DNA of 64,000 nucleotides from Bifidobacterium eulemuris (lineage in GTDB: Bacteria > Actinomycetota > Actinomycetes > Actinomycetales > Bifidobacteriaceae), in contig NZ_CP062938.1 of assembly GCF_014898155.1 (NCBI RefSeq), positions 1,550,001-1,614,000 on the forward strand. Reading direction: 5' to 3'. Position numbers and translations under genes: made by a program. The notes under the pieces were generated by a model. That model had not been told where the DNA came from, made no database searches, and saw only the letters and a list, made by a program, of their open reading frames with translations. Of the stretch, positions 9,212 to 57,210 are shown piece after piece; within the stretch, counting starts at the first letter, position 1, and every line of letters starts with the position of its first letter.

Positions 9212-10058
9212 GGTGATGTTCAGCTTCGGCGGCACCGAGCTGATCGGCATCACCGCGGGCGAGACGGAGAATCCGCGCGTCACGATTCCGAAGGCCACCA
9301 ACGGCATCGTCTGGCGCATCCTCGTGTTCTACATCGTCGCGCTCGGCGTGATCATGGCCGTGGTGCCGTGGAACACCATCGACGGGCAGACCAGCCCGTT
9401 CGTGCAGATCTTCGATTCGGTGGGCATCCACGCGGCCGCCGGCATCCTCAACTTCGTGTGCCTGACCGCCGTGATGAGCGTCTACAACTCCGGCTTGTAC
9501 GCCAACTCGCGCATGCTGTATTCGCTGGCCCGCCAAGGCAACGCGCCCGCCTTCCTCGGCAGGCTCAACAAGCGCGGCGTGCCGGTGGCCGGAGTGCTCG
9601 CCTCCGCGGCGATCACCGCGGCGGCCGTGGTGGTGGTGTTCCTGTGGCCCACGTTCGCGTTCAACTATCTCATGTCCATCGCCACCATCGCCGGCATCAT
9701 CAACTGGACGATGATCATGATCACCGAAATGCGCTTCCGCAAGGTGGTCGCCGAGGGCCTCTCGCCCACCGACTCCGCGCTGGCGGGCAAGTCCGGGCAA
9801 GAGGCGTTGGACGCCATCCACTTCAAGCTGCCGTTCGCGCACGTGACCCCGTGGGTGGTGCTCGCGTTCCTCGCGCTGGTCGTGGTGCTGATGTGCTTCT
9901 CGGCGAGCTATCGCATCGCCGTCATCGCCGGCGTGATCTGGCTGGCCATCCTGCTGACCGCCTACCAGCTCACGCAGGCCAAGCGCAAGTAAGGATCGCC
10001 CTCCTCCGCGGATACGGATGTGACAACGCATACCCAGCAAGCAATTGCTATGCACTAG

Positions 10059-10258
10059 GACTATCTGCGTTACAGGTAGTGGATTTTCAGCCTTGCGGAC
10101 ATCGATCTGCGTTACGGGTAGTGCCGGTCTGGCTCTTCCTGAACTATCAACATTGATATTCCGCGACTCATACTCGGCATAGCAGCAAAAGGGCACTACC
10201 CGTAACGCAGATCGATGTCCGCGGGCAGCCGAATCCACTACCCGTAACGCAGATAGTC
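10059..10258. repeat. Palindromic element E1 with doubled ATCTGCGTTAC motif
   Basis: This 200-bp element fills part of the 687-bp gap before lacZ. Two arms of about 67 bp (10059-10125 and 10192-10258) are inverted copies with nine mismatches, eight in one internal block. Each arm carries the motif ATCTGCGTTACGGGTAGTG twice, 42 bp apart, and the loop is about 66 bp. A second member with the same geometry but altered motif is at 42962-43154. No reading frame is convincing. Confidence 0.85.
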
Positions 10259-10664: not shown

Positions 10665-14297
<3,633 letters not shown>

Positions 14298-15564: not shown

Positions 15565-15746
15565 TCTTGGCACTCCTTTGAATTGTTGTGTGGACGGCAA
15601 TCTGCCGCCCGACAAATGTTAGTTCAGTTTTACAAACCGATGGTCACAAGCATAGAGGGATTTTGTCCCTCAAACCGATGCCTATCCTACCTTCAGCCCC
15701 GTATGGACGCGAATCCCGTCCAAAAGGTGAACCGCGTCGCGGCGGC

Positions 15747-15949
15747 GTGAAGCGGGCAGTCCAGTGGACTGCCCGTAGCCGACGCCCGAGAGAGGCGACA
15801 GCCGAACGAGGGAAACAAGACAGCCATTGACGCCAGTCAATGACCACCGGTGCGTGAAGCGAACAGTCCAGTGGACTGTTCGTAGCCGACGCCCGAGAGA
15901 GGCGACAGCCGAACGAGGGAAACAAGACAGCCATTGACGCCAGTCAATG
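15747..15949. repeat. 107-bp tandem duplication, each unit with two palindromes
   Basis: Two units start with GTGAAGCG at 15747 and 15854, and each ends with ATTGACGCCAGTCAAT, itself a hairpin. The first palindrome in each unit has 10-bp arms: GGGCAGTCCA/TGGACTGCCC at 15754-15774 and GAACAGTCCA/TGGACTGTTC at 15861-15881. The GG to AA change is matched by CC to TT in the other arm. It lies between the MHS transporter gene and ilvC. Confidence 0.85.
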
Positions 15950-15961
15950 TCCATGCAGGCC

Positions 15962-42961: not shown

Positions 42962-43154
42962 ATCTGCGTTAGCGGTAGTGGATTTGGGACCTTGCAAAGG
43001 TCGATCTGCGTTAGCGGTAGTGGGCTTTTACGCGATACACCGAGTATCCGGCCCGTTATTTCAACGGTCATACTTGGGATAACGTCAAACGGACACTACC
43101 GCTAACGCAGATCGACCTTTGCAGACCATCATTTCCACTACCGCTAACGCAGAT
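42962..43154. repeat. Palindromic element E3, variant of E1
   Basis: The 193-bp element has the same plan as that at 10059: arms of about 61 bp with two copies of ATCTGCGTTAGCGGTAGTG 42 bp apart, then a loop of about 70 bp and the inverted arms. Where E1 has CG in the motif, E3 has GC in all copies of both arms. It fills most of the 521-bp gap between the kdp promoter region and the DMT exporter. The rest of the gap shows only CTAACGG repeats near 42788-42836. Confidence 0.85.
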
Positions 43155-47344: not shown

Positions 47345-47604
47345 ATCGGGATTCCTCGACTTCGCTCGGAATGACGCAAACATTTCGGCGGAAATGGCGC
47401 GAACGTTCCGTGCGGGATGACGCAAACATTCCGCCCGGGATGACGCCGCATCATCAACGTCATTCCGAGCGAACCGTTTGCGTCATTCCGAGCGAAACGC
47501 GACTCCACCGCCATTCCGAGCAGAGCGCGCCCCACCCGTTATTCCGAGCAGAACGTTTGCGTCATTCCGAGCGGAGCGCAGCGTAGTCGAGGAATCTCCG
47601 ACGG
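47345..47604. repeat. Cluster of CATTCCGAGCG dispersed repeats
   Basis: CATTCCGAGCG or ATTCCGAGCAGA recurs at least five times from about 47460, and GGATTCCTCGACTTCGCTCG at the left faces GCGTAGTCGAGGAATC at the right. The whole can be read as nested copies of the family at 10337 and 33633. No gene is supported in this 327-bp gap. Confidence 0.75.
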
Positions 47605-50365: not shown

Positions 50366-50501
50366 GACGAGTTGGCACTTGGCCCTTCCAGTTGGCACCC
50401 GATTCGGGGCGTCGGCGGAGGCCGGCAACGTCATTCCGCCGTTGCGCGAACACTGGCTTCACAACGCAGTGCCAACTGGAGGCCCCAAGTGCCAACTCGT
50501 C
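50366..50501. repeat. Palindromic element E4 with AGTTGGCAC motif
   Basis: The left arm (50366-50398) begins GACGAGTTGGCACTTGG and ends CCAGTTGGCAC. The right arm (50469-50501) is its inverted copy with three mismatches. AGTTGGCAC therefore occurs twice directly, 20 bp apart, and twice inverted. The loop is 70 bp. It lies in the 270-bp gap between the reductase and the metal ATPase; no gene is seen there. Confidence 0.85.
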
Positions 50502-56759: not shown

Positions 56760-57080
56760 CTCGCGTCGCGCGCTTGTGATTTCCGAAGGAAATCGGCGAA
56801 TTCAAGGATGGCTCCGCCGGCACGAAAGCCCACAGGGCTTTCTCTACGGCCGGCTCGCGTCGCGCGCTCGTGATTTTCCTTTGGAAAATCGGCGCGCGAA
56901 GGATGGCTCCGTCGTCAAAGAGCCCACAGGGCTCTTCTCCTCCTCGCGTCGCGCGCTTGTGATTTTCCTTCGGAAAATCGGCGCGCAAAGGATGGCTCCG
57001 TCGTCAAAGAGCCCACAGGGCTCTTCTCCTCCTCGCGTCGCGCGCTTGTGATTTTCCTTCGGAAAATCGGCGCGCGACAC
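56760..57080. repeat. Tandem array of 89-94-bp units with two hairpins each
   Basis: Units begin with CTCGCGTCGCGCG at 56760, 56854, 56943 and 57032; the last is cut short. Each has GATTTTCCTTCGGAAAATC and AGAGCCCACAGGGCTCT hairpins. Unit 1 differs, with AAAGCCCACAGGGCTTT, another paired change. The array lies between tgt and tRNA-Leu and holds no credible gene. Confidence 0.9.
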
Positions 57081-57127
57081 GCCAAGTTGCTTCATATATT
57101 TATTGGTGGTAAATTGTCCCCTTGTCT

Positions 57128-57210
57128 GCGAGTGTGGCGGAATGGTAGACGCGCTGTCTTCAGGTGGCAGTGAGTGTATGCTCGTGGGGGTTCAAGTCCC
57201 CCCACTCGCA
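57128..57210 (+). tRNA. tRNA-Leu (anticodon CAG)
   Basis: The 83-nt sequence folds as a class II tRNA: acceptor GCGAGTG/CACTCGC, anticodon stem CTGTC/GGCAG around TTCAGGT (anticodon CAG), a long variable arm TGAGTGTATGCTCGT, and T-arm GGGGG/CCCCC with TTCAAGT. CCA is not encoded. It decodes CUG, the main Leu codon here. Confidence 0.97.

Follow-up and report, generated by a model that had tools for sequence, protein, structure and literature searches.

The palindromes E1 (10063..10254, 192 bp) and E3 (42962..43154, 193 bp) of the window (the whole stretch of 64,000 nucleotides analysed) were found to belong to a set of 22 scattered, helically phased elements in the Bifidobacterium eulemuris genome (2.92 Mb), one of which sits 8 bp 3' of a predicted nuclease gene. 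On the reading put forward here, held at a probability of roughly 0.55, this nuclease binds the four sites of each element, and its cutting drives the copying or upkeep of the elements. Recognition of the repeats by the nuclease is likely, since bifidobacterial relatives of the enzyme adjoin their own, differently spelled versions of the element; the nuclease may also spread or maintain the repeats. The ensemble is best read, by analogy, as a nuclease-repeat system that would function like REPIN-RAYT with an unrelated enzyme.

Plan and distribution of the elements

The site pattern ATCTGCGTTANNGGTAGTG was matched 8 times in the window at up to 3 mismatches (0.06 expected; 8 was reached in 0/100 shuffles), and 88 sites at up to 2 mismatches, making up the 22 complete elements, were found in the genome, where a reversed-pattern control gave 0. 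The original prediction had named an absence of further copies as a counter-argument; the copies are present. Every element carries four 19-bp sites, two direct and 42 bp apart, then two inverted; a spacer of 23 bp separates the sites within an arm and a centre of 70 or 71 bp separates the arms (22/22; 42 + 70/71 + 42 bp; 192 or 193 bp in all), and the centres vary in sequence from copy to copy at a length of 70 or 71 bp.

E1 (locus L042) falls outside genes on a rough ORF heuristic; the flanking plus-strand ORFs end at 9992 and start at 10680. Its outer left site ATCTGCGTTACAGGTAGTG (10063..10081) and inner left site ATCTGCGTTACGGGTAGTG (10105..10123) lie on the plus strand, followed by a centre of exactly 70 bp (10124..10193) and by the inner (10194..10212) and outer (10236..10254) right sites on the minus strand. 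The 16-bp block at its dyad, CATTGATATTCCGCGA (10151..10166, plus strand), resembles the family core CGTTGGAAAATGGCGG weakly (8/16). E3 (locus L043; 71-bp centre) has four GC-class sites ATCTGCGTTAGCGGTAGTG, at 42962..42980 and 43004..43022 on the plus strand and at 43094..43112 and 43136..43154 on the minus strand, with a dyad core CGTTGAAATAACGGGC (43051..43066, minus strand) that matches CGTTGGAAAATGGCGG at 10/16. The 42-bp motif spacing, the near-perfect arms and the single variable block first described for the two palindromes were all borne out, as was the CG-versus-GC difference between their cores. The sole mismatch of E1 (CA in the left outer site against CG in its right counterpart) is absent from the orthologous element of genome G041 (L095), and the simplest account is a change of one arm in the B. 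eulemuris lineage.

Spacings were measured between exact copies of TACGGGTAGTG in B. pseudolongum and in five B. oedipodis loci. Same-strand distances were 21 (39 cases), 33, 42 and 54 bp and forward-to-reverse distances were 49, 60, 70, 80-82, 101-103 and 122-124 bp, all near a whole number of helical turns (10.5 bp each); the design therefore appears to be read on double-stranded DNA. A 16-bp core lies at the exact dyad of the centre (27+16+27). The dyad agreed with CGTTGGAAAATGGCGG at at least 11/16 in 22/30 B. pseudolongum copies and at at least 14/16 in 18; B. eulemuris cores were weaker (8-13/16 on the better strand, with the best position at the dyad in 13/22). Helical phasing and dyad core together support a dimeric or multimeric protein on DNA, one of the options first put forward for E1.

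The B. pseudolongum site (GCTACGGGTAGTG) is shorter and recurs in 21-bp steps, one to three per arm in the copies read, and the centre is mostly of 70 bp, with 49 and 38 bp also found. Three of these copies (L083, L121 and L123) seemingly lie within an open frame, where, judged by eye, the 21-bp repeat of 7 codons would give a linker rich in Ala, Thr, Gly and Ser. The exact site pattern was matched in 4/112 Bifidobacterium genomes and the inner-pair pattern, with one mismatch allowed, in 6/189 genomes of the family, every one within Bifidobacterium: B. eulemuris (G000), G041, B. oedipodis G053, and the B. pseudolongum subspecies genomes G033 (LMG 11569), G061 (DSM 20099) and G062 (2093B). Across 84,980 species, each represented by a single genome, in a scan that may leave out the B. 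eulemuris genome and very near ones, the exact 70-bp-gap pattern was found nowhere else except in one Acidobacteria MAG; this match (L145) was set aside as chance, its centre being without the family core, and was kept out of the B. pseudolongum repeat profile. A lone site on a 9.6-kb B. oedipodis contig (L086/L147) was rejected as an autonomous copy, with no partner site in the 3.6 kb searched.

A third palindrome of the window (50366..50501) follows the same plan and belongs to a second family, with AGTTGGCAC at 50370 and 50390 on the plus strand and inverted at 50469 and 50489; the sites are 20 bp apart and the gap between the arms is 70 bp. Three further B. eulemuris copies were located (G000:C1:130352, 1709051 and 1711715), and the centres of this family have the same kind of dyad core (e.g. 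CGTTGGAATATCAACG). No nuclease was found beside its copies within the 464 kb scanned.

The linked predicted nuclease and adjoining palindromes across the genus

The protein linked to the B. eulemuris element (gene G000:C1:1686273-1687385) is predicted to combine an AbiEi-like N-terminal domain, the modelled fold of which resembles 6y8q, with a Vsr/homing-endonuclease-like PD-(D/E)XK (DUF559) domain that has the predicted catalytic fold and the conserved acidic residues. The DUF559 score of a B. pseudolongum homolog (L129) was 28.6 bits against a cut-off of 20.6, that of the B. eulemuris protein 13.5 and thus below it; three homologs scanned against ncbifam yielded a single weak DUF559 match. 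Relatives of the nuclease were matched in 247/396 genomes of the order, and the nuclease profile in 81/112 Bifidobacterium genomes, with one to seven matches each.

Forty nuclease loci (the 20 best and 20 of a second tier) were examined for an adjoining palindrome, which was counted where its gapless score exceeded the maximum (36) of 17 control loci. Such a palindrome was observed at 30/40 loci (19/20 best, 11/20 second-tier), at most 290 bp from the gene, and, after plain repeats of one gene had been merged (L164/L166; L184/L185; L188/L191/L194; L189/L192/L195; L190/L193/L196), at 26/32; the rate expected in the B. eulemuris genome is about 15% per locus. Loci without one were L176, L184, L186, L188, L194, L201 and L203, and near misses were L185 (score 43, 663 bp away), L191 (36) and L193 (35). 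Among other nuclease loci within the genus a palindrome was found in 4/11 (L205, L206, L213, L219). In nearly all positive loci the palindrome lies 3' of the nuclease gene; L168 has one on both sides, and L167 a high-scoring one 5' and a second element 3'.

Most of the 30 palindromes have the same plan with other site sequences. Many families share a frame like ATCTGC.TT and differ in the second half (GGGGTAC, GAGGCGTTA, AAGGGGCTGA), some have wholly different sites, and in some each arm bears a single site. Arms and nuclease co-vary: arm similarity tracks nuclease identity (Mantel r 0.80 over the 30/40 loci, L185 being excluded for its palindrome 663 bp off the gene). Dispersed sites of the GGGGTA type number 78 in G052, 22 in G031, 20 in G021, 18 in G068, 12 in G073 and 1-5 in eight further genomes. 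The pairing of nuclease and palindrome may be wider than the genus. Short palindromes (e.g. TGTGGGCATGAAATCTGCAG with its inverse) were also seen near DUF559-type genes beyond Bifidobacterium (L226, L227, L228, L232 and also L223).

The AbiEi-like domain also admits an explanation in which the protein mainly binds and bends DNA at elements that are operators or chromosome-organising sites, its nuclease domain being of minor importance. Binding to multiple 23-bp inverted repeats is described for AbiEi-family proteins, and the AbiEi of S. agalactiae bends its own promoter (both from passages of PMC7319586); the elements are intergenic and long kept, their phasing would suit a wrapped complex, and their positions lean towards oriC (KS p 0.04; 11/22 within 30% of the half-chromosome, binomial p 0.06). 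This lean is weak, however, and the gene contexts of the 22 elements, by the rough ORF heuristic, are 8 convergent and 11 tandem against 3 divergent. Five residues of the nuclease domain (E182, D215, E226, H232 and D239) are invariant in 40 homologs with a mean column identity of 32%, and the palindrome stands 3' of the gene in nearly all positive loci and not over the promoter; unlike the AbiEi/Rv2827c antitoxin operators, with which the predicted N-terminal fold is shared, the B. eulemuris element recurs at 21 other places and the protein has a nuclease domain. A role in regulation or chromosome organisation is accordingly considered unlikely. An assignment of the elements to the replication terminus or a macrodomain was dropped as too weak, the position of dnaA (1.773 Mb) putting the element cluster near the origin.

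Less probable still is a defence or addiction system, in which the nuclease would attack foreign or unmarked DNA, the palindromes would serve as sinks, self-marks or switch-off sites, and specificity would diversify together with the sites. Nuclease and arms do diversify jointly; the best PDB sequence relative is PvuRts1I (E 0.007); the nuclease homolog L169:1465-2451 (G052) weakly matches a PADLOC model of a methyl-directed restriction enzyme (E 7.8e-05; L164, E 0.05); and a Vsr-like DUF559 protein is required for the DNA-damage response in Caulobacter cells without a cytosine methyltransferase (from passages of PMC12907096). Judged by eye, however, the ORF upstream of the B. eulemuris nuclease is a tRNA synthetase, and no methyltransferase, toxin or transposase stands out beside the gene; 22 copies are more than a switch requires; and a phage target was not seen, because the exact inner pair of the E1 type was present in 0 viral contigs.

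Agreement between the arms and the RNA reading

The arms pair well (88% of arm cells), and covariation by pair counting over the 18/22 B. eulemuris elements of 192 bp (the four of 193 bp being omitted) was 0.130 against 0.090 in shuffles (0/500 as high) and was also above that in slid registers, as a structured RNA or a hairpin held by base pairing would have it. The signal is not specific to base-paired positions, however, and a structured RNA was rejected. The variable dinucleotide at the site core is in most cases GC or C-N, and in B. eulemuris it agreed between hairpin partners in 13/22 and 16/22 elements, between direct repeats in 15/22 and 16/22, and between the cross pairs that are unable to pair in 16/22 (outer-left/inner-right) and 17/22 (outer-right/inner-left). 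The same dinucleotide class was present at all four sites in 33/42 elements (18 all C-N, 15 all GC). Since non-pairing sites agree as well as partners, the agreement belongs to the element as a whole, which is what a single protein reading all four sites would lead one to expect; such element-wide agreement can yield hairpin covariation above shuffles and slid registers. Positions 31-41, a block present once per arm, agreed between the arms in G000 (0/2000 shuffles) and not clearly in G041 (265/2000).

Changes between orthologs were counted with the degenerate G041 element L089 (1/16) excluded from arm and ortholog counts. In 14 G000-G041 pairs there were 56 one-sided arm changes that broke or made a match, 7 one-sided changes where neither species matched and 7 two-sided changes, 3 of them exact compensations; for the 11 pairs with collinear centres these classes numbered 31, 6 and 2 (1 exact). 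All arm changes of E1 (three) and of E3 (four) against their orthologs were one-sided. The original prediction had held that pairing is kept while the sequence drifts and that every change has its counterpart in the other arm. The second statement is correct for E1 against E3 and fails across the family, several elements having unmatched cores (e.g. L034, L035, L038, L047, L049, L051); the first is contradicted by a core dinucleotide common to all four sites, hairpin partners or not, and by the mostly one-sided ortholog changes, which are the unpaired drift that had been named as refuting selection on pairing. Rfam at gathering thresholds returned two tRNAs and nothing else in the whole window, and the site spacings fall on the ladder of the DNA helix; an RNA or hairpin explanation is now barely credible.

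Copy dynamics and relation to known systems

An orthologous place in G041 was identified for 14/22 elements. In three of these pairs (L031, L033 and L034) the centre has flipped between its flanks (53, 64 and 53 of 70 positions matching in inverted orientation vs 37, 36 and 37 collinearly), and B. pseudolongum L116 and L141 likewise show centre inversion. Conversion between copies was observed as well: E3 and L044, 26 kb apart, have 69 centre bases in common, and L044 matches its own ortholog at 61/70. Gene conversion between arms, a third option first offered for E1, is supported in part by this sharing of centres and by the three inverted ones; half-element mosaicism was sought, with breakpoints not clearly concentrated at the dyad and the E3/L044 tract consisting of the centre and one arm. 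Among the 11 collinear ortholog pairs, identity was 98% for outer sites, 97% for inner sites, 96% for the spacer, 94% for the centre and 92.5% for the flanks, so that the sites are the slowest-changing part of the element. A faster evolution of centres was considered and discarded, the effect being gone after removal of the three inverted pairs.

Copies also differ between genomes. A degenerate relative of L049 (80% identical) is present in the corresponding G041 region in a different order. The genome G062 has the arrangement element-nuclease-element at a single locus, where G033 and G061 hold 190 bp of other sequence. At one site (L074) a single relic site is left in both G033 and G061, so element copies were lost there. 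Phased repeat pairs number 62 in G062, with the linked nuclease, and 21 and 15 in G033 and G061, without it, both of which do carry more distant nuclease paralogs elsewhere. Decay of sites after nuclease loss was rejected, site exactness being unchanged and only copy number differing.

Elements of this kind could also be MITE-like repeats moved by an unrelated transposase, with the nuclease gene a hitch-hiker. The copies are dispersed and intergenic, L048 and L050 are near-identical at separate genome sites, including about 80 bp of upstream sequence, and L036 and L050, which have no G041 ortholog, are close to a phage-type integrase and a piece of an ISL3 transposase. This is nevertheless highly improbable, given a palindrome at 30/40 nuclease loci genus-wide with arms that differ by nuclease clade, no target duplication at the five sites compared with absent copies, and outer repeats of varying number (1 to 3 per arm) in B. 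pseudolongum, where fixed termini of the MITE or transposon kind fail; in B. eulemuris the termini are constant. Clean transposition was rejected, no precise empty site having been found. Tn7-type ends (TnsA/TnsB) differ in the same respects, namely the lack of a defined outer terminus in B. pseudolongum and of a target duplication, and in that no transposase is seen by eye beside the B. eulemuris nuclease.

For the preferred reading, nuclease-driven copying or upkeep, we infer binding and cutting by the enzyme. The nuclease would multimerise on both arms, so that two nuclease units come to lie at the dyad. DNA nicked or broken within the centre or close to it would then be mended with a second element or the facing arm as template, and such repair could account for ectopic conversion, for inverted centres, for a constant length despite differing centre sequences, and for copies being slowly gained and lost. 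Each element family would be maintained by one nuclease lineage, much as REPINs are by their RAYT transposases. A wider proposal, tentative and at somewhat less than even odds, is that homing-endonuclease-like DUF559 nucleases with an AbiEi-type reading domain multiply and homogenise, in bifidobacterial chromosomes, their own phased landing pads, which are non-coding and two-fold symmetric, with site codes particular to each lineage and a shared dyad core, as a convergent counterpart of REPIN-RAYT acting on double-stranded DNA.

REPIN-RAYT systems (REPtrons) are alike in their dispersed, mostly intergenic palindromes of inverted repeats, one of them beside the enzyme gene, in lineage-specific repeats that track the enzyme, and in their persistence (PMC3116915, PMC3733652 and PMC8266576). 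The bifidobacterial families work like them in that each enzyme lineage has its own repeat family. In contrast, the bifidobacterial enzyme is a predicted PD-(D/E)XK nuclease (DUF559-type) and not a Y1/HUH tyrosine transposase, and its 19-bp sites, four per element of about 190 bp, are phased on the double helix, whereas the REP unit is a 20-40-bp sequence tagged GTAG; GTAG is contained in the E1 site and missing from the same-plan families GGGGTAC, GAGGCGTTA and AGTTGGCAC. Because enzyme class and REP unit both differ, the element was not filed under REPIN-RAYT. Known homing enzymes mobilise an intron or a gene. The partner here is a non-coding palindrome family, unlike that of Vsr-like/EDxHD homing endonucleases (I-Bth0305I) and DUF559 proteins. 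In the open-access literature searched (subscription journals being outside its scope) no description of DUF559-tied palindromes or of an E1-type bifidobacterial repeat was found. The dispersed palindromes of a major gut genus gain a concrete candidate partner enzyme, and their origin becomes biochemically testable; the comparison suggests that a single enzyme gene became coupled to a family of scattered palindromes on a second occasion, this time through an unrelated nuclease, and the many natural nuclease-site pairs make a DNA-recognition code readable from comparative data.

Several other repeats were noted in the same genome. Repeats of the CGTCATTCCGAGCG / TCATCCTGAGCGGAGCG kind, which have no relation to E1, are dispersed in the genome, at 47361-47579 of the window and at G000:C1:42788 and 1711503. 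Positions 15745-15953 of the window hold a near-identical (95%) direct duplication of 102 bp, 107 bp from start to start, and positions 56760-57082 hold 89-bp direct repeats (97% identical) that end just ahead of a tRNA gene at 57128. A frame of 329 aa is present three times (G000:C1:1820447, 1924158 and 2604712), each time with the same weak match to a DnaA-type ATPase; these frames are likely to be IS21 helper genes.
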